From a virus, in IMG/VR virus record IMGVR_UViG_3300009151_000041, positions 39,144 through 103,143 of that record: a DNA stretch of 64,000 nucleotides. One strand, given 5' to 3'. The position numbers and the translations under genes were made by a program. The notes below the pieces were generated by a model that was given only the letters and a program-made list of their open reading frames with translations, was not told the origin of the DNA and ran no database searches. The stretch's first letter is position 1; the number at the start of each line of letters is the position of its first letter. Of the stretch, positions 34,649 to 59,803 are shown piece after piece.

Positions 34649-35281
34649 CTACCGGCTGAACAAGTCATGCACAAAATCTTGCAGGAGTTGATTGTGACGA
34701 CCTTGATGCCAATGTGGCTTTAGATAGTTTTTGTCATACCAGAACTGTTGGCTTTCTGGATGACATCCAATTAGCCCAATTCTATCTTGTATGATGGCCA
34801 TGGCATCACCATTGGCATATCTAGCCACAGTGTCAAACCCTGTACCTACCAAAGCACATCCATCGTAAAAGTACATGCGATCAGCTTGACCATTCCAAGT
34901 GACAGCACAGGCTTTGGCATGTGGCCGTCGTGTGTCAGTGTGAGGTTGTCGAATGTATTGTACTGCTCGCACATTATTCAAAATGTTAAAGTAATTGCGA
35001 TCGGCCCAATATGCACCCATACAGATGCCAAGATATCTACCACCACGATTGATAAACGTGCGTATGCGTGGTGCATTTTCTTTCAGCATCCAGTCGTATG
35101 TGTCTGCATCGCCCATGCCGCCAGGAAATGCCACACAATCAACATCATCAAAGAAATTGTCTTCCAATTGATGTCGTGTAAAAATTTTAAATCTATAGTA
35201 AGGAGTTAGTGATTGTATTATGCCATTGCCACTTTGTACTGAACATCTGGGCTGATGTAAGAACAGCGCAATTGTTTTCAT
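34649..35281 (-). CDS. Class I glutamine-amidotransferase-like (BPL_N) protein
   Basis: 210 residues. YLGICMGAYWA provides the nucleophilic C87 in an elbow, and GCHPES gives H174 and E176, an intact triad. FPGGMGDADTYDWM fits the BPL_N/ThuA-like group rather than a synthase-linked GATase; such proteins may act on peptides or cofactors without a partner. Cytoplasmic. Stop directly abuts the convergent gene. Confidence 0.75.
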   Translation of the reverse strand: MKTIALFLHQPRCSVQSGNGIIQSLTPYYRFKIFTRHQLEDNFFDDVDCVAFPGGMGDADTYDWMLKENAPRIRTFINRGGRYLGICMGAYWADRNYFNILNNVRAVQYIRQPHTDTRRPHAKACAVTWNGQADRMYFYDGCALVGTGFDTVARYANGDAMAIIQDRIGLIGCHPESQQFWYDKNYLKPHWHQGRHNQLLQDFVHDLFSR

Positions 35282-35422
35282 TTAGTCTGACTGGTTAATT
35301 GGAGGAGGCGCATGTTCTTTGGCTTTTTGTTTGGCTTTTTCTGTAGCTGGGCTTGTTCTATGCGGAGCAGCGGGGCGGGGTGTTGAGGGATATCGGGGAG
35401 GTTTGTGTTTGAACCAACTCAT
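35282..35422 (-). CDS. 46-aa Pro/Lys-rich mini-protein
   Basis: ATG 35422, AAAGGACA upstream. MSWFKHKPPRYPSTPRPAAP and HRTSPATEKAKQKAKEHAPP resemble mini-proteins of many phages. Expected disordered. Late-type element at 35442. Confidence 0.6.
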   Translation of the reverse strand: MSWFKHKPPRYPSTPRPAAPHRTSPATEKAKQKAKEHAPPPINQSD

Positions 35423-35441
35423 AGGCTGTGTCCTTTTGAAG

Positions 35442-35449
35442 TATTTACC
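35442..35449 (-). promoter_or_regulatory. TAAATA late-type element
   Basis: GGTAAATA on the minus strand, 19 nt before ATG 35422. Confidence 0.58.
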
Positions 35450-35454
35450 AGTGT

Positions 35455-35685
35455 TTATTTTTTGTTGTAGTTCCAGACCAGTCTGCGTTGTTCTTTGCGC
35501 ACCCAATGGATACAATCTTCTTTAAGTGACAAGTTTTTAATTTTATCACAATGGTTAATACTTATGGTGGCTTGAGCCATGCACATGGCATTTTGCTCGG
35601 GATCTTTAATCTTGGTGCAATCATTTAGGTTCACAGCCCATGACTGCATGGGCGCAAACACAAGTATAAACAGGGTGGGCCACAT
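35455..35685 (-). CDS. Small secreted Cys-containing protein
   Basis: 76 residues with a signal peptide (1-17, ending SWA). The mature part has four Cys (DCTKIKDPEQNAMCMAQA, NHCDKI, EDCIHW) probably forming two disulfides in the periplasm. AAGG precedes the ATG; a TAAATA box ends 4 nt before it. Function unknown. Confidence 0.65.
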   Translation of the reverse strand: MWPTLFILVFAPMQSWAVNLNDCTKIKDPEQNAMCMAQATISINHCDKIKNLSLKEDCIHWVRKEQRRLVWNYNKK

Positions 35686-35689
35686 GCCT

Positions 35690-35697
35690 TATTTACG
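35690..35697 (-). promoter_or_regulatory. TAAATA late-type element
   Basis: CGTAAATA ends 4 nt before ATG 35685, the same spacing as at 19224 and 37550. Confidence 0.5.
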
Positions 35698-35703
35698 GCC
35701 AAA

Positions 35704-35729
35704 ATAATAGGACTATGTAGTCCTATTAT
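35704..35729 (-). terminator. AT-rich terminator hairpin
   Basis: ATAATAGGACT-ATGT-AGTCCTATTAT, perfect 11-bp arms, followed on the minus strand by TTTT; probably terminates the glycosyltransferase transcript. The 75 nt between it and 35805 hold nothing recognisable. Confidence 0.75.
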
Positions 35730-35804
35730 GCTGGTTACGAGTTCCAGCGCCACTCAATCGTTGTGGTCGGTTATATTACTTATATTTGAGAAATTACAAT
35801 TTTA

Positions 35805-36800
35805 TTACACCAGATTGTCTCGAAATATCTCCCAGGCCAGTTGCCAACTCCATCGCTGACTGCCTTGCCACACAGTTTCTCTATCCAGTCCCATGCATTT
35901 GTATGTGGCAGTGGCTAGATTTTGATCCATAACACCTGTAACTCCCGGATCAATCACATCTAGTGGTCCTGGTGCAGGATACGCTGCCACTGGCGTTCCG
36001 CAGGCCATGGCTTCAATCATGACCAGACCAAATGTTTCCCATCTAGATGGAAACACAAACACATCTGCTTGTGCATAGTATTCGGCCAGTGCTGCACCAG
36101 TTTTAAATCCCACAAACTCCACGTCAGGATATTTCTGTTGCAGTTCTTTTCTGTAGGGACCATCACCTACCATGATTTTTCTAGCACCAGGATATTGCAT
36201 GGCACAAAAGTCATCAAGGTTCTTTTCTTTTGAAACTCTGCTCACGCATACCAGTATGGGACGATCATTTTCTGCAGGATCACGCCAGTCAGGCTTGAAC
36301 ACTTGTCGGTCAACACCGCGTGTCCAACTGATCACAGTGCCGTCAAAGCCTTGATCTCTTAACTCGTTGACCATGGTGTCTGTTGTGGTCAGCACTTTGC
36401 CCGAATGTTTGTGGAACCAACGCACGTAGGCCCAGGTAATAAACTCTGGCACACCCACAAGTTTTTTTATGCCTTCAGGAAAGCGAGTATGATAAGCGGT
36501 ATTATACCGTATACCGTCACGCTCAAGCAGGTGTCTAGCAGACACACCGAGAGGACCCTCTGTGGCGATATGGTAATGAGTCGCACCCACCTCCGCAATC
36601 TTCTGGCGTAGCGCCCGGGGATAGGCAATCTTGACTTCGTTGTAGCCAGGACAATCACGGTGGGGGAACTGCCCGGGATCAATATAAACAAGCTGATACC
36701 CATCCAAAAGCGCATGTGCCTCCAAATTCTTGTAGGTCGTAACCACACCATTAATTTGATCCGGCAAGTTGTCTGTTACTATCAGTATCTTCTTTGTCAT
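35805..36800 (-). CDS. GT-B glycosyltransferase, Agt/SqdX-like, linked to the PlcP-like gene
   Basis: 331 residues, GT4 family. E255-x7-E263 (WETFGLVMIEAMACGTP) binds the nucleotide sugar. N-terminal NGVVTTYKNL and AYHTRFPE are typical of glycosyltransferases that transfer sugar to diacylglycerol (SqdX, Agt). It is soluble/peripheral with basic and Trp-rich surface patches, as expected for membrane-interacting GTs. It overlaps the PlcP-like gene by 50 nt. Together they match the bacterial pair that turns phospholipids into glycolipids under phosphate limitation: PlcP releases diacylglycerol and Agt glycosylates it. The lipid acceptor is inferred from context. Confidence 0.8.
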   Translation of the reverse strand: MTKKILIVTDNLPDQINGVVTTYKNLEAHALLDGYQLVYIDPGQFPHRDCPGYNEVKIAYPRALRQKIAEVGATHYHIATEGPLGVSARHLLERDGIRYNTAYHTRFPEGIKKLVGVPEFITWAYVRWFHKHSGKVLTTTDTMVNELRDQGFDGTVISWTRGVDRQVFKPDWRDPAENDRPILVCVSRVSKEKNLDDFCAMQYPGARKIMVGDGPYRKELQQKYPDVEFVGFKTGAALAEYYAQADVFVFPSRWETFGLVMIEAMACGTPVAAYPAPGPLDVIDPGVTGVMDQNLATATYKCMGLDRETVWQGSQRWSWQLAWEIFRDNLV

Positions 36801-37545
36801 TTCGTTGTGTCCATGTTACAATTTCCCATGCACCTGAATGATGTTCTACCAATGCTGTGCATGATTCAACCCAGTCGCCATCATTCATGTAAACAACGCC
36901 GCCAATGTCTTTGATTTCTGCGTGATGGATGTGGCCGCATATCACCCCATCAAATCCACGCTTGCGGCAGTAGTCAGTGAGATTGCGTTCAAATTGAAAT
37001 ATAAAGTCTACAGCCTTTTTAACGCGATGCTTAAGATACAGGCTAATACTCCAGTACCCAAAACCCAGGCGGTGACGTATCCAATTAAACTTAGTATTGA
37101 GAAATAGTATGAAATCATATGCTTTATCTCCTAAAAAACTCAGCCAAGGTGCCAGTCGAGTGATACCGTCAAATAGATCGCCATGGGTCACAAGGTAGTG
37201 CTTTCCATCCGCACCCACATGTTCACATTGATTGCGAACTTCCACATGCCCAAATGTGATACCATCAGGTATCATTGGGCGTAAAAATTCATCGTGATTG
37301 CCGGCCACATACACCACTCGTGTGCCGCGTTTGGCGTGGCCTAAGATCCTGCGAACCACATTGGTGTGGCTTTGTTTCCATCGCAGTCGGTTTTGTTGAA
37401 CCTTCCAGCCGTCAATAATATCGCCAACTAGATAAAGAGATTCGCAGGTGTTGTGCTTGAGAAAGTTGTTAAGACGATCTGCCTGGCACTCTTTGGTACC
37501 AAGGTGAACATCGGAGATAAAGATGCTGCGATATGTTTTCTCCAT
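36751..37545 (-). CDS. plcP: PlcP-like phospholipase C (LpxH-type metallophosphoesterase fold)
   Basis: 264 residues. Metal motifs: SDVHLG (11-16), GDIIDGW (41-47), GNHDEF (82-87), HGDLFDG (121-127), GHIHH (204-208). The segment GFGYWSISLYLKHRVKKAVD and the NDGDWVES block (221-228) match the PlcP group (Sinorhizobium SMc00171 type) rather than true LpxH. That group, annotated as UDP-2,3-diacylglucosamine diphosphatase, removes the head group of phosphatidylcholine or -glycerol to give diacylglycerol under phosphate starvation. A late-type box ends 4 nt before the ATG. No Shine-Dalgarno. Confidence 0.82.
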   Translation of the reverse strand: MEKTYRSIFISDVHLGTKECQADRLNNFLKHNTCESLYLVGDIIDGWKVQQNRLRWKQSHTNVVRRILGHAKRGTRVVYVAGNHDEFLRPMIPDGITFGHVEVRNQCEHVGADGKHYLVTHGDLFDGITRLAPWLSFLGDKAYDFILFLNTKFNWIRHRLGFGYWSISLYLKHRVKKAVDFIFQFERNLTDYCRKRGFDGVICGHIHHAEIKDIGGVVYMNDGDWVESCTALVEHHSGAWEIVTWTQRNDKEDTDSNRQLAGSN

Positions 37546-39848: not shown

Positions 39849-40763
39849 TTAAGTAGTTCTAACCAAATCTAACGTAACACAATGAAAGCCGCCTCCTAGA
39901 GTGCGGCTTTGTCTTAACCGCAAAGGAATTACTTCAAATTGATAACTCTTTAGAGTTTTGATCAATTCAGTTTGGGCGGCGTCACAAATCACTGTGTGTG
40001 GATCTACTACCAACATGTTCATGGCAATCCATTTTGATGCATATGGATACTGATAAAAATCCTGTGCCACAACATCATGCACCCAAATTTTATGCCATCC
40101 ATCAAACACTTGAGGTACAGTATCAACCCCAACTCTATGTCCGTTTAGTATGACCAAACCTTCGCGTAGCGGCACAATGGTTGAATCAATATGTACACCA
40201 GCATAAAAATTGCACAGTTCTATTGTGACATCCGGAAATTGCTCACACAACCAATCATACGCTTTTCGATTGCCCGAAGATGATTCCAAATACAGCATCT
40301 TGTCGCCCAGTCTGCACACATTGGCAGCATCCAGTGTCATACCTTCGTTTCGTGGCATGAACAGGTAATGGTCAGCAGAATCCACAATGTGATGATAGCA
40401 CTGCAATTCCATGTCTCTACAAGGATACATCATGGCAGGATCAACTATAGTAGATCCATACACAAGAAACCTGTCGCGTGGACAATAGTTATACATGCCA
40501 TCGTGTGTTTGGAAGTTCAGTGGATCTGGACGTACTACTTCTACACCTAGACTTGTCAGTGTGGTTGCTAATGCGTCCAAATCTTCATTAGCTTCATCAA
40601 TAATGCGCTGTGGTACAGGTCCGCGTGGAACCGGTGTTTCTGTCCATGTAGTCTTTTCACTTTCTCGAGAAAACACAGGATCATTCACAGGCCAGTTTGC
40701 ATCAGTGGCACTACCTACCACAATTTTTCTTAGTGGGCTCCACTCATCAACTGTGGATATCAT
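39849..40763 (-). CDS. Amidinotransferase-superfamily protein (glycine/inosamine amidinotransferase-like)
   Basis: 304 residues. Catalytic elements of the guanidino-modifying superfamily: YCPRDRF and TLDAANVCRLG (Asp), GVHIDSTIVPLR (His) and LGGGFHCVTLD (C295 nucleophile). The HID and GG-x-HC patterns point to arginine:x amidinotransferases rather than deiminases. It would transfer an amidino group from arginine to an amine acceptor. Its start overlaps the 2OG-oxygenase-like stop. Bacterial relatives make antibiotics, osmolytes or modified sugars. Confidence 0.82.
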   Translation of the reverse strand: MISTVDEWSPLRKIVVGSATDANWPVNDPVFSRESEKTTWTETPVPRGPVPQRIIDEANEDLDALATTLTSLGVEVVRPDPLNFQTHDGMYNYCPRDRFLVYGSTIVDPAMMYPCRDMELQCYHHIVDSADHYLFMPRNEGMTLDAANVCRLGDKMLYLESSSGNRKAYDWLCEQFPDVTIELCNFYAGVHIDSTIVPLREGLVILNGHRVGVDTVPQVFDGWHKIWVHDVVAQDFYQYPYASKWIAMNMLVVDPHTVICDAAQTELIKTLKSYQFEVIPLRLRQSRTLGGGFHCVTLDLVRTT

Positions 40764-41278
40764 ACGTGTCCAGTAATTTGTAAAGAATATCGGTCTTCAA
40801 GTCCGATGTTGGCTGCCATGTGTGGCAGATCATATACCCATTCAACTGTGTCGCCTGCCTTCCATGCAACATAGGGCCTACCATCTACTTCAAGATAGTG
40901 TCCTGGTTTCCAATCTTCCAACAACAGCAGAGCTCGACAAATTGAAGTTTCTTTTCCTTGAAGACCAAATACTTCTACGTAGCGTTTATATAGATCCTGA
41001 TGCACCGGCATCACAGTGTCTGTGCTCATGCGATAAAATGCCAGGCCAATGTCTTGCCATCCGCGAGCTTGATACATTTCAATGAACTTGTTGGTCCAAG
41101 TAGGCAAGCGATGACGCATGTCACAAAGATCGCCACAAATTTTACTTGTGTAACCTTGACTGGTCCATAACGCTACATTGGCTGGATCATTAAATGGTTC
41201 CTGGATGTAGTCCAGTTGTTTGAACTCGTCGTCCCAGAACTTTTTGATATTGTATTCACGCACTGCGGGTATTGCCAT
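40760..41278 (-). CDS. 2OG-Fe(II) oxygenase-like protein
   Basis: 172 residues from ATG 41278, overlapping the dehydrogenase by 23 nt. H93-x-D95 (PVHQDLYKRY), H153 (DLPHMAANIG) and R163 (EDRYSLQITG) reproduce the facial triad and 2OG-binding Arg of the double-stranded beta-helix. The downstream part AWKAGDTVEWVYDLPHMAAN resembles aspartyl/asparaginyl hydroxylases. Its substrate may be made by the flanking enzymes. Confidence 0.7.
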   Translation of the reverse strand: MAIPAVREYNIKKFWDDEFKQLDYIQEPFNDPANVALWTSQGYTSKICGDLCDMRHRLPTWTNKFIEMYQARGWQDIGLAFYRMSTDTVMPVHQDLYKRYVEVFGLQGKETSICRALLLLEDWKPGHYLEVDGRPYVAWKAGDTVEWVYDLPHMAANIGLEDRYSLQITGHV

Positions 41279-42500
41279 AGTGTATGACCTCAACATCCTT
41301 GGTAGATTCAAGTTTACGCCATGGGTCAACAATCACACTACTGCGTAAAATGTCACAGTATGGTTTGGTATCTGCTTGATCACCGGTATACTCATAAGTG
41401 ATTTTACGATTGTGCGCCCACAGAAATACTGCGGGATAATCTACACCATCAACTACGTCAGTTGGATCATCGGCCAACGGGTCAACATATTTTAATGCAG
41501 TATGACCATGTTTGGTCACATAGTGTCCTACCAGAGTTGAGTAGCTGCCAATACAGTATTCCACATCGGGCTTGTAGGCCTTGCCATGGATCACAATGGG
41601 CAAATTGCCATTGTCTTCACTGACTTTGATCAGGTACCTGGCAAGATTTTCTGCTTGAATTTCTCTAGCATGCATTACAGTATCAAATAAGTCATAACCA
41701 ATGTTATACTCTTGAGCCAACCAACGCAGAGCAATGTTGTCGCGTGGGTGGCAAGCACCTGCATCGCCCATACCAGCAGTCATGTACTTGGGTCCCATGA
41801 TGCGCATGGTTGATCTGGCCAAGGCATTTGTGACCACATCCACATTGATGTTTCCAATCCGTAATGCAAAGTCCTGAATCATGTTCACCAAACCAACTTT
41901 TGCAGAGATAAATGTATTGTAGAAGATTTTGATTGCTTCGCATTCGTCCCATGTGCCTACTTCATAGCGTGGATCATTTTGCATGATAGTCTTGTACAAA
42001 TCAATCAGTTCACCAGCAACACCTGTGAGTGATCCATCCTCTGTGCCAATGATAACCATTTCGGGATTGGCCATGTCCCACTTTACTGAGCCCATGGCAA
42101 TCAAGTAAGGATTGTAGCAAAACTGATGCTTGGTGTCAATCAACGGTACAAATTTATTGCGAGTGGTGCCAGGCAACACTGTGGATATTAACACAATTTT
42201 TTTGCTGTCATTTGCATATCGGTTTACATTTTTGATAGCATCAATCACAGCATCATGCCCAAAATCTCGTGGTTCCATGTGACTGGATGGTACAGATCCA
42301 TCATATCCTTCTGCATGTGGAGTTGGCACTGCAATAAAGATCCATTCACTTTCATTCACAAGCTCTTCAATTCCACATACTTTTACTGAGTCACTTGTTC
42401 GAGGGTAAATATCATATCCCCAGACTTGATGTTTCTCTGCCATTACTTCGGCGCAATCCAAACCAAGTTTACCAATTCCTATAAAACCAATTTTTGCCAT
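41256..42500 (-). CDS. UDP-glucose/GDP-mannose dehydrogenase-family protein
   Basis: 414 residues from ATG 42500 (AAAGGA upstream). GFIGIGKLGLDCAE is the NAD Rossmann loop; the catalytic Cys lies in GDAGACHPRDN; FNP-like YNPYLIAMGSV and the C-terminal domain fit the family. It would oxidise a nucleotide sugar to its uronate. Probably provides a modified sugar for a phage or host surface glycan. Own promoter at 42519-42548. Confidence 0.85.
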   Translation of the reverse strand: MAKIGFIGIGKLGLDCAEVMAEKHQVWGYDIYPRTSDSVKVCGIEELVNESEWIFIAVPTPHAEGYDGSVPSSHMEPRDFGHDAVIDAIKNVNRYANDSKKIVLISTVLPGTTRNKFVPLIDTKHQFCYNPYLIAMGSVKWDMANPEMVIIGTEDGSLTGVAGELIDLYKTIMQNDPRYEVGTWDECEAIKIFYNTFISAKVGLVNMIQDFALRIGNINVDVVTNALARSTMRIMGPKYMTAGMGDAGACHPRDNIALRWLAQEYNIGYDLFDTVMHAREIQAENLARYLIKVSEDNGNLPIVIHGKAYKPDVEYCIGSYSTLVGHYVTKHGHTALKYVDPLADDPTDVVDGVDYPAVFLWAHNRKITYEYTGDQADTKPYCDILRSSVIVDPWRKLESTKDVEVIHYGNTRSA

Positions 42501-43677
42501 GAGCGTTCCTTTAGATAGATTATACAATTTTTTGCAAGACATTTGCAATCAGGATATTTTAATTTATCGCTTTTTGCCACACGGGTCAAGAAAAATAGAA
42601 GACTGTCTGCCATTGGCAGAACCAAACTACAAGTACTTAGAAGAAAACCCAAAAGTGCAAATGATCTGCCATGATCAGGAAACACTAGATTACAAATCTT
42701 ATGAGGTACCATTGGAGTTGCACTCTAAAATTAACAATATTCCATATCCTGTGTTCAATAAAGTTTCTAAACATGGCGCTATGAACTACTATGACCAGAT
42801 TTTATTACTGCATTCGGAAATGCGTAGTAAAGACCTTGAATGGTTTGAAAACAACGGCTCAACAGGAGTCTATTGGTGGAGTCATGCAATCATAGCTAGA
42901 GATTGGTATAGATATGCTGAAATTGACCCACTACTCTATAAAGAAAAAAATCCAAAAGTTGATTTTTTAATTTACAATCGTGCCTGGTCTGGATTAAGAG
43001 AATATCGTTTAAAATTTACAGAGTTAGTCTTGAATCAAAGTTTACAAAGTTTTTGTCAGTTGAACTTCAACCCTTATGACAACAATGCCCACTACAAAGA
43101 GCATAAGTTTGTTAACTCTGCCTTTGCCCTCACGAGAGATGATCTTTGTGAATATTTTGATCCAACCACAGTTGACGCTGCTGCCAGCGCAGACTATTCA
43201 AATTTAGACTACCAAAACTGTGCTATTGAAGTTGTTTTAGAAACTGTATTTGATGATACCAAGTGGCATCTAACAGAAAAAACATTGCGCCCATTGGCGT
43301 GTGGCGTTCCTTTTATTTTGGCCAGCACTCCTGGAAGTTTACAGTATTTGCAAAGCTATGGTTTTAAAACATTTCATAATTACTTTGACGAAAGCTATGA
43401 TTTAATTCACGATCCTGTGCAACGACTTGAGTGCATTGTGCATCTAATGAAACAACTGTCTTCTTTGCCACAAAATCAAAAACAGCAGTTGTATTCTAAT
43501 CTACAGTCCATATGTGATTTTAACAGACAGAGATTTTTTAGCAAAAGTTTTTACACACAAGTGGTTGAAGAATTTGTCACTAACTTTAGCCAGGCATTCC
43601 AATTAATCATACAAACCGATTCACATCAATACTTTGATCGGTTTAAACGACTGCAAACATTCTTCAATACCGTGTGA
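42499..43677 (+). CDS. Possible glycosyltransferase-like phage protein
   Basis: 392 residues, divergent from the dehydrogenase with start codons overlapping. The segment WHLTEKTLRPLACGVPFILA then STPGSLQYLQSYGFKTFH looks like the nucleotide-sugar-binding end of retaining or fucosyl-type transferases (E-K...P...PF.L pattern). This protein type recurs in aquatic phages. Enzyme assignment is tentative. ATG 42499 has no Shine-Dalgarno. Confidence 0.6.
   Translation: MSVPLDRLYNFLQDICNQDILIYRFLPHGSRKIEDCLPLAEPNYKYLEENPKVQMICHDQETLDYKSYEVPLELHSKINNIPYPVFNKVSKHGAMNYYDQILLLHSEMRSKDLEWFENNGSTGVYWWSHAIIARDWYRYAEIDPLLYKEKNPKVDFLIYNRAWSGLREYRLKFTELVLNQSLQSFCQLNFNPYDNNAHYKEHKFVNSAFALTRDDLCEYFDPTTVDAAASADYSNLDYQNCAIEVVLETVFDDTKWHLTEKTLRPLACGVPFILASTPGSLQYLQSYGFKTFHNYFDESYDLIHDPVQRLECIVHLMKQLSSLPQNQKQQLYSNLQSICDFNRQRFFSKSFYTQVVEEFVTNFSQAFQLIIQTDSHQYFDRFKRLQTFFNTV
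42519..42548 (-). promoter_or_regulatory. Promoter of the sugar dehydrogenase
   Basis: TTGCAA at 42543-42548, 18-nt spacer, TATAAT at 42519-42524. Confidence 0.6.
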
Positions 43678-58272: not shown

Positions 58273-59139
58273 TTATATCCTTATAGAGTATTTGTCTTGT
58301 TCCCATGCCTGTTGGTACAAGTTTCTTAGTTGCTGTTGTAGTGCAGTTTCCAAAAAATGTTTGTTATCAATTGATGCAATAGATATTACACCACCGGCAG
58401 CCGTAGTTGCAAAAGCGTCATCTGCTATGTTCAATAATTCTTCGTTGATATCGCAGTATTGAAAATCTATGCCATGCTCTTGACATAATGTGTTTATCAT
58501 CTTCATAGTGATTCCTGACAGTCGATTACTAGCAGGAGACAACACACATCCATCTTTTATAATTGCTACACTAAACTGTGGTCCTTCGGTAAGCAGGTCA
58601 TTGTGATCCAACAAAATAGGATTGTCAAATCCACGCATGGTCGATTCAAGCTGTGCCATAGTAAAATCTTGTCTAGCAAAATTTTTGTAAGACTGATTGA
58701 TTGATGTATCTGGAATGCGGCGAACTTTTCTAGCAATGCATAACTTCATGTCTCGGTCTGGTTTGACTGATTCATACGGCCCTGTTCCTATCATTAAATG
58801 AGGTTGTGTTTTTATAACATCACGTATGTCATATGACGAAGGTTCTCCTCGAGTGGCAATTATCCACACATGAATATCTTGTGTGGCATGAGTGTTGATT
58901 TCTTTTATAATGCCAACGAGTTCATCAGCTGTGTGTTTTACATTGATGTAGTAATATTTGCAACCTTGTAAAAAACGATTGATATGTTGATCAATTGCTA
59001 AGGCTCGATTATTTTTAATACTGATTACATCATAAACGCCGTAAGAACGTAGCAGTCCAAAATCTTGAACATTGATTTTTAAATCGCCAACTTGGCAAAA
59101 TTTACCATTGTGCCAAGCAGGAAAATCTTTTTTGTTCAT
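58273..59139 (-). CDS. PLP-dependent aminotransferase class IV
   Basis: 288 residues from ATG 59139. Fold-type IV pattern: VQDFGLLRSYGVYDVISIKN at the N-terminus, candidate Schiff-base lysine K152 (NQSYKNFARQ), LLTEGPQFSVAII (the conserved TEG with Glu 185) and RLSGITMKMI. Members include branched-chain aminotransferase, D-amino-acid transaminase and aminodeoxychorismate lyase. Substrate is not resolved. Lies inside the nrd operon next to a class II aldolase, which is unusual. Confidence 0.83.
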   Translation of the reverse strand: MNKKDFPAWHNGKFCQVGDLKINVQDFGLLRSYGVYDVISIKNNRALAIDQHINRFLQGCKYYYINVKHTADELVGIIKEINTHATQDIHVWIIATRGEPSSYDIRDVIKTQPHLMIGTGPYESVKPDRDMKLCIARKVRRIPDTSINQSYKNFARQDFTMAQLESTMRGFDNPILLDHNDLLTEGPQFSVAIIKDGCVLSPASNRLSGITMKMINTLCQEHGIDFQYCDINEELLNIADDAFATTAAGGVISIASIDNKHFLETALQQQLRNLYQQAWEQDKYSIRI

Positions 59140-59152
59140 GACCGATATCCTA

Positions 59153-59803
59153 TTAGATTTTTCCTGATGCAAGAACTATTTTGCAAATATGTTCTAATCT
59201 TTCAATATGTTCATAAGCACGCCATGGTGTGACATCAATTGCTACCACTCCGTGCCCTTTGATGCCCACTATGTCGTAGGCAATATTACCACGGTCATCC
59301 AACTTCAGTTGACGATGACACTGATCAGCAAGCTCTTGGCTGATTGGTTTCACATCACCTACATTGGGTGCTACCCGAGTGTAGCGATTGAGTTCTGGAA
59401 ACGCATCGCTAATAGTACTTAGATCAATGCCAGCATGCATGGCTGCAATGCAATAGGTTGGATGTACATGAACAACAACTCTAACCTCGTTTGAGTGCTG
59501 CCCCATTTCTTTTTGTAGACCAAAGTGCAATGGTAGTTCTCCGCTGGGCTTGAGATTGGCACTAATGTCAGTGTAGTGTTCTTCTTGCCAGGATCTAGTT
59601 AGAAAAGGTGGAGTAGCACTGATGCTGTCAATCAATCCAATCTTTTTAAACTGATCTGGCTGTAGTGTTTGCTTGCGCACACCCGACGGTGTGATATAAA
59701 AATGATCACGATCGTGGTGACGAATAGAAATGTTGCCATCTCTGCTGGTTATCCAATTGCGTTTGTACGCATCTACCAATATATCACAACAGGTTTCTAA
59801 CAT
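59153..59803 (-). CDS. Class II aldolase/adducin-family protein
   Basis: 216 residues. SRDGNISIR and ITPSGVRK form the substrate phosphate loops; SGELPLHFGL with E89 as catalytic acid, and VHVHP (H112/H114) plus GHGVVA supply zinc ligands. Family members include L-fuculose-phosphate aldolase, L-ribulose-5-phosphate epimerase and MtnB of methionine salvage. Start codon close to the preceding gene. It might act with the aminotransferase on one carbon skeleton. Confidence 0.85.
   Translation of the reverse strand: MLETCCDILVDAYKRNWITSRDGNISIRHHDRDHFYITPSGVRKQTLQPDQFKKIGLIDSISATPPFLTRSWQEEHYTDISANLKPSGELPLHFGLQKEMGQHSNEVRVVVHVHPTYCIAAMHAGIDLSTISDAFPELNRYTRVAPNVGDVKPISQELADQCHRQLKLDDRGNIAYDIVGIKGHGVVAIDVTPWRAYEHIERLEHICKIVLASGKI

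Follow-up and report, generated by a model that had tools for sequence, protein, structure and literature searches.

The question raised by this locus is what a virus would do with an amidinotransferase, an oxygenase and a nucleotide-sugar dehydrogenase encoded side by side. The window analyzed here is a stretch of 64,000 nucleotides of a giant-phage genome, taken from the IMG/VR record IMGVR_UViG_3300009151_000041, and its segment 39849-43677 holds four intact genes, which we call AT, OX, UGDH and GTx. The initial annotation described three overlapping minus-strand genes and one divergent start; all four open reading frames were located where it had placed them, with overlaps of 4 bp between AT and OX and 23 bp between OX and UGDH (Table 1). 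The head-to-head arrangement of UGDH and GTx is also present in relatives. Two hexamers upstream of the UGDH Shine-Dalgarno sequence may act as a UGDH promoter, a role that we infer from their sequence. A GT4 gene lies near the cluster, at 35805-36800.

Table 1. Genes and sequence elements of the locus, numbered from the first nucleotide of the window.
Feature	Position	Strand	Description
AT	39849..40763	(-)	StrB1/AGAT-family L-arginine amidinotransferase, 304 aa
OX	40760..41278	(-)	small Fe(II)/2-oxoglutarate oxygenase (predicted), 172 aa from its ATG
UGDH	41256..42500	(-)	UDP-glucose/GDP-mannose-dehydrogenase family, 414 aa; ATG at 42500
GTx	42499..43677	(+)	divergent GT-B-like protein, 392 aa
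CATG	42498..42501		start codons of UGDH (-) and GTx (+) overlapping head to head at 42499-42500; direct sequence
AAAGGA	42512-42507	(-)	Shine-Dalgarno sequence of UGDH, inside the GTx 5' coding region; direct sequence
TATAAT	42524-42519	(-)	upstream of UGDH, inside the GTx 5' coding region; putative promoter element
TTGCAA	42548-42543	(-)	upstream of UGDH, inside the GTx 5' coding region; putative promoter element

Judged by its sequence, AT clearly belongs to the StrB1/AGAT family of GME penteins. Its homology to solved amidinotransferases spans the full length of the protein; in phmmer searches it matched StrB1 (1bwd) with E=1.3e-58, 5wpi with 2.7e-26, AGAT with 4.5e-25 and SxtG with 2.5e-22, and HsvA was also matched. 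The catalytic and arginine-binding set (D97, D145, H191, D193, R210, S243 and C295) is identical in the aligned bacterial references and the catalytic residues are kept in the phage relatives, which bears out the earlier proposal of an amidinotransferase-like enzyme with C295. Class-2 pentein paralogs of jumbo genomes were considered as additional amidinotransferases and rejected, because the alignment shows no conservation of D145, R210 and S243. StrB1 puts guanidino groups on amino-cyclitols, with L-arginine as the donor. By analogy, AT would transfer the amidino group of L-arginine to an amine acceptor, most likely an amino sugar, a cyclitol or a sugar-linked amino acid, giving a guanidino group.

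R210 and S243 of AT align with arginine-binding residues of AGAT, and automatic annotation names such proteins 'glycine amidinotransferase' (K00613 is assigned to them in PMC8226683). Both observations favor a role as a host-metabolism AMG, in which AT would be a glycine amidinotransferase acting in the creatine/guanidinoacetate pathway or in arginine economy. We hold this role to be very improbable, since StrB1 is the closest solved relative with a score far better than that of AGAT, and a tight link to OX is not a feature of bacterial amidinotransferases: an OX neighbor was found at 2 of 80 AT loci from bacterial genomes, L276 and L202, the latter a phage contig. With OX beside them only at these two loci, the bacterial relatives give no hint of the acceptor.

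The window OX has no significant match in Pfam, PHROG or PDB sequences, and searching the PDB sequences with profiles of OX and GTx yielded nothing beyond chance matches. PF05118 does not match the window protein; it matches the S-SCSM2R homologue weakly, with 15.0 bits for L082 against a cut-off of 22.6. The AF2 model of OX (pLDDT 94.6) has 215 PDB structural matches at E<=0.001, and the neighbors among the Foldseek matches listed are mostly 2OG oxygenases, with some cupins. The model combines a DSBH fold with the HxD...H iron triad and the 2OG-binding arginine by which the Fe(II)/2OG oxygenase superfamily is recognized, features that OX has in common with bacterial prolyl-4-hydroxylase, AsqJ and AspH/PF05118. 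The residues named at the outset, H93, D95, H153 and R163, agree with numbering from the ATG in Table 1 and do not vary among 42 homologues, the most distant of which are 25% identical; together with the predicted fold, which is that of a 2OG oxygenase, they uphold the original assignment. OX may hydroxylate the guanidino unit made by AT, or a precursor of it.

Alternatively, the product of AT and OX might be a secondary metabolite or a guanidino (hydroxy-)amino acid in free form, attached to no glycan, with UGDH and the glycosyltransferases (GTs) as mere neighbors. Members of the AT family also produce metabolites that stay free (the matches include AGAT, SxtG and HsvA), OX resembles hydroxylases of small substrates such as the proline hydroxylases, AsqJ and MysH, and a Bdellovibrionota MAG contig has OX adjoining AT with GTs absent; for similar clusters of cyanophages, Iyer et al. 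(2021, PMC7824862) likewise keep a metabolite as an option. We nevertheless consider a small-molecule product unlikely, as two separate AT clades, whose gene orders differ, have the OX-AT pair inside GT clusters, and in each of them the sugar enzyme UGDH is linked anew.

UGDH carries PF03721 and PF00984 domains, belongs to phrog_9148 and matches UGDHs in the PDB. It shares with the UDP-glucose 6-dehydrogenase family the Rossmann GxGxxG motif of the NAD site, and Lys191, Asn195, Cys250 and Asp254 are retained. In human UGDH, E161 is the Glu of the NPE(F) motif, and the E161Q variant traps the thiohemiacetal (PMC3184952). Canonical enzymes have this Glu and a second one, both present in the five solved UGDHs shown, whereas in our residue survey the NPE motif reads NPY132 and the second Glu is M136, with Tyr and Met at these positions in 155 of 155 phage homologues. 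Because both glutamates are replaced throughout, the phage protein is, on its residues, not a canonical UGDH. The initial reading as a nucleotide-sugar dehydrogenase thus stands for the family domains and the Lys/Asn/Cys/Asp set, but the missing catalytic Glu leaves a role as a UDP-glucuronate maker unproven. Within the proposed pathway UGDH would oxidize C6 of a nucleotide sugar. A bolder suggestion, which we think quite improbable, is a new enzyme type in which a Cys250-bound thiohemiacetal or thioester, or a free aldehyde, would be captured by an amine or guanidine compound from AT/OX and not by water, resulting in a guanidine-bearing uronamide or imine sugar; if true, this would be glycan chemistry without earlier description.

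No Pfam family could be assigned to GTx, in which the motifs (F)HDQE, E248-T249, T259-E260-K261 and GF-TF are conserved across 44 homologues. Its AF2 model is confident (pLDDT 91.9) and the neighbors listed are all GT-B enzymes; the best PDB structural match, the sole one at E<=0.001, is a GT-B enzyme with E=1.2e-4 and a TM of about 0.3. The glycosyltransferase-like label given earlier to the divergent gene therefore keeps the support of its fold but with weak scores, and GTx is a probable GT-B-like glycosyltransferase by its predicted structure.

The gene order of the window recurs in 117 viral loci of the window type, a partly redundant contig count that comes down to about 68 distinct loci at roughly 90%, with OX in all 117, UGDH in 112 (it is missing from five) and GTx in 111. 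The arrangement is thus not due to chance, and on the two tests set beforehand for the initial annotation, synteny and active-site alignment, the order is kept and the residues align. Synteny within these phages alone proves little, however, because the whole neighborhood, including ClpX, Hsp20, ClpS, MPE and UvdE, is equally conserved. This would suit genes of unrelated function that are stable neighbors in one phage lineage, but OX, AT and UGDH occur together or are re-associated, in other orders, in phages without that neighborhood. Plain lineage synteny was rejected as a full explanation on this ground, and we rate unrelated functions as highly improbable.

In a second AT clade (35-38% identical) the genes are rearranged, with OX at 71 of 80 loci, a GT25-like gene at 75 and mini-DegT at 74, and about 30 loci have a third architecture, OX-sulfotransferase-miniDegT-5/6xGT25-AT-UGDH. 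A scan seeded with OX found AT at 75 of 77 new loci, the remaining two having OX at a contig end; seeding with the OX of L181 returned four loci only. The OX-AT link is nearly phage-specific. Synechococcus phage S-SCSM2R, the only phage record in the annotated collection in which AT and OX each have a close homologue, has GT-GT25-GT-DegT-rSAM-GT-OX-AT-GT2 in one run. Several GTs and nucleotide-sugar enzymes share a locus in this phage and in loci of the L191/L303/L181 type, while the window itself has UGDH and GTx only. The genomes of jumbo relatives additionally carry genes for full-length DegT sugar aminotransferases and for epimerases; in the window's own 103-kb record, possibly a fragment, the search for a DegT found none.

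On balance, we lean towards the view that AT, OX and UGDH form a biosynthetic module specific to phages, in which an unusual sugar unit is made ready for a glycan that the phage encodes. The best reading of its product is a guanidinylated, hydroxylated (amino/uronic) sugar unit, which GT-type enzymes (GTx here, the GT25-like series in other phages) would assemble. What the data show are the sequence families, the AT and OX catalytic residues, the predicted folds, the conserved linkage and the recurrence within GT clusters; the common substrate pathway, acceptor, step order and final target are what we infer from them. The idea of an amidinated or hydroxylated sugar pathway, put forward initially, gains strength from the presence of these enzymes in the GT/aminotransferase clusters of other phages, and is partly supported in its dehydrogenase step, given the replaced Glu. 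Since the enzyme set recurs in sugar-assembly clusters of uncultured phages, an unusual guanidine-bearing component of a sugar coat is probable; a host-surface glycan and a virion glycan are about equally likely targets, and DNA is the least likely.

Decoration of DNA had also been suggested, and the module could place a guanidino sugar on a modified base. Glycosylation of modified bases is known in phages. Jumbo relatives carry folE (6 of 7 records) and queD/queE-like genes beside a mini-DegT/epimerase/GT locus, which makes a 7-deazaguanine route conceivable; the AT/OX cluster is, however, sited away from folE and the que genes in these genomes. Thymidylate synthase/hydroxymethylase (PF00303) was found in only 2 of 12 records and is absent from that of the window, no TET/JBP (PF12851) scored above the cut-off in the 12, and no TGT (PF01702) was found in the records searched, although DpdA-type enzymes may escape PF01702. 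With TET absent and PF00303 rare, DNA decoration becomes less likely and has little support; we regard it as just as improbable as the AMG role.

Elsewhere, guanidino-sugar chemistry is known chiefly from aminoglycoside antibiotics and from toxins of cyanobacteria. The AT/OX/UGDH set is common to hundreds of giant and marine phages that have not been cultured (contig counts being partly redundant), and if our reading is true these phages make strongly cationic guanidino sugars, which could alter the charge of the host surface, keep out superinfecting phages or form a coat on virions. With S-SCSM2R the question is open to direct testing.

The streptomycin inosamine-phosphate amidinotransferase StrB1 (1BWD) shares the D/D/H/D/C catalytic set with the phage AT, but has 348 aa against 304 and lies in an aminoglycoside operon, whereas the phage AT has a clade to itself, well supported and set on a long branch, and sits beside OX, UGDH and GT genes instead. 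Campylobacter phages of the CP220 group likewise have a pentein AT adjoining nucleotide-sugar transferase genes; it is distant (22-25% identical to the window AT), with radical SAM genes around it and no recognizable OX annotated. In the open literature searched, no amidinotransferase-oxygenase phage module is described. A parallel is offered by the glycan clusters of jumbo cyanophages, for which a change of the host surface or the synthesis of a decorated sugar has been proposed, and in which multiple GTs, NDP-sugar enzymes, 2OG oxygenases and epimerases share one cluster as they do here (Iyer et al., 2021, PMC7824862); an amidinotransferase is absent from that account, whereas the conserved core here consists of AT, OX and the altered UGDH.

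The initial annotation placed an enzyme cluster at this locus, and four intact ORFs are present there. They encode an amidinotransferase (AT), a small Fe(II)/2OG oxygenase (OX), a nucleotide-sugar dehydrogenase-family protein (UGDH) and a GT-B-like protein (GTx). The virus record containing the window is 103,143 bp long; contigs carrying the closest loci reach 320-364 kb, and the record is thus probably a jumbo phage fragment. AT, OX and UGDH are coupled translationally on the minus strand (overlaps of 4 bp for AT/OX and 23 bp for OX/UGDH), with GTx divergent. The TTG starts listed for OX and UGDH are overlong; going by alignments and the Shine-Dalgarno sequence, the genes begin at ATG codons at 41278 and 42500. 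The UGDH and GTx start codons overlap head to head at 42499-42500 (within a CATG), a layout seen again in relatives. The UGDH Shine-Dalgarno site and a promoter-like TTGCAA-18-TATAAT element lie inside the 5' part of the GTx reading frame; GTx itself has no visible Shine-Dalgarno sequence.

Features of the window and of loci on other contigs (L handles)
Feature	Record	Coordinates	Strand	Remarks
AT	window	39849-40763	-	StrB1/AGAT family
OX	window	40760-41278	-	
UGDH	window	41256-42500	-	
GTx	window	42499-43677	+	
Divergent region	window	42498-42548		
GATase-like ORF, GT4 glycosyltransferase, LpxH-like phosphoesterase	window	34649-37545		In a row, ~2-5 kb from cluster
Class-IV aminotransferase	window	58273-59172		PF01063, 7.5e-32; between both ribonucleotide reductase subunit genes
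Short DegT	L082	9293-9880		
Short DegT	L315	8315-8911		
Extra pentein	L316	1699-2739		
Extra pentein	L317	2472-3533		
Extra pentein	L331	6895-9168		
Extra pentein	L325	6259-8899		
Halogenase-like, ligase-like ORFs	L281	11163-15000		
Halogenase-like, ligase-like ORFs	L317	166-2470		
OX-AT pair	L276	521-2409		uvrC-like bacterial flanks

AT was missed by Pfam; its top match in a phmmer search against the PDB was StrB1 (1bwd, 1.3e-58), before HsvA, AGAT and SxtG, and D97, D145, H191, D193, R210, S243 and C295 are identical across phage and bacterial references. No sequence family could be assigned to OX, and H93, D95, H153, R163 and a few other residues are kept in 42 homologues at identities down to 25%; its AF2 model (pLDDT 94.6) matches 2OG oxygenases including prolyl-4-hydroxylase, AsqJ and AspH. 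For GTx, likewise without a family found, the model is confident (pLDDT 91.9), and the structural neighbours listed for it belong to the GT-B glycosyltransferases, although they score weakly.

Every one of the 117 window-type AT loci (~68 distinct at roughly 90%) contains OX, 112 contain UGDH and 111 contain GTx; because ClpX, Hsp20, ClpS and UvdE are also conserved there, this linkage alone amounts to lineage synteny. Beyond it, the decisive evidence comes from another clade of ATs, at 35-38% identity and reached via Synechococcus phage S-SCSM2R, whose loci carry OX homologues (71/80), GT25-like genes (75/80) and a short DegT protein (74/80). A third arrangement, in ~30 loci, comprises OX, a sulfotransferase-like gene, short DegT, 5 or 6 GT25-like genes, AT and, immediately after it, a UGDH 48-64% identical to that of the window; in one case it is flanked by a helicase gene on one side and genes for head proteins on the other. 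An OX-seeded search added 77 loci, of which 75 contain AT and the other two have OX at the end of the contig. The AT tree gives each of the two phage groups a single, well-supported clade with long branches, separate from bacterial ATs, and does not settle how the two are related. AT loci from bacterial genomes contain OX in 2/80; one of these lies on a phage contig that had been binned into a Bacteroidetes MAG, and the other, on a Bdellovibrionota MAG contig, is the only likely bacterial instance seen.

The jumbo relatives also encode DegT aminotransferases of full length, together with an NAD-dependent epimerase and paralogues of GTx, next to a second pentein protein that has diverged. Further penteins number 1-5 per relative; they keep the D97/H191/D193/C295 equivalents and not D145/R210/S243, and several adjoin GTx-like paralogues, DegT and epimerase genes. 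Near pentein/AT genes, two phage-like contigs carry ORFs resembling, by eye, a tryptophan halogenase and an AMP ligase, one (L281) also a carbamoyltransferase. In several jumbo genomes (L315, L318, L320, L322, L324) a short DegT/epimerase/GT-like locus lies beside folE and queD/queE-like genes; no gene of the TGT family was found, and base-hypermodification hallmarks are sparse. The short DegT proteins (~200 aa; L082, L315) match profile positions 24-98 and 163-239 without the middle and retain a Lys ahead of the GxGG motif; they are candidate minimal PLP-enzymes, common in phage glycan clusters. In some relatives (L047, L098) the GATase-like/GT4/LpxH-like row of the window is inverted and directly adjoins GTx.

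The unexpected feature of the module is the dehydrogenase. UGDH matches PF03721/PF00984, phrog_9148 and PDB UGDHs (E=3e-14). The five solved UGDHs shown have (N/S)PEFL(R/A)EG, whereas each of the 155 distinct phage sequences compared, Synechococcus phage Bellamy included, has NPYLIAMG. In human UGDH, E161Q, at the first Glu of this motif, traps a covalent thiohemiacetal (PMC3184952). Because the active-site Lys, Asn, Cys and Asp are kept, the phage enzyme is probably active; its last catalytic step may differ, and it should not be classed as an ordinary UDP-glucuronate maker on sequence alone.

The protein families, their key residues and folds, the gene linkage and the setting in glycan clusters are observed. 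On the most likely reading, the module makes a short glycan. AT would transfer an amidino group from arginine to the amine of a presumed sugar-type acceptor, OX would hydroxylate what may be the same unit, UGDH would oxidize a nucleotide sugar, and the glycosyltransferases would join the products, presumably in that order. The glycan may be destined for the virion or the host surface. The module is real, conserved and widespread. For jumbo cyanophages, a study that does not mention amidinotransferases proposed that their polysaccharide clusters change the host surface against rival phages (PMC7824862). With its predicted function, the module would be a new variation on the phage glycan clusters already known.
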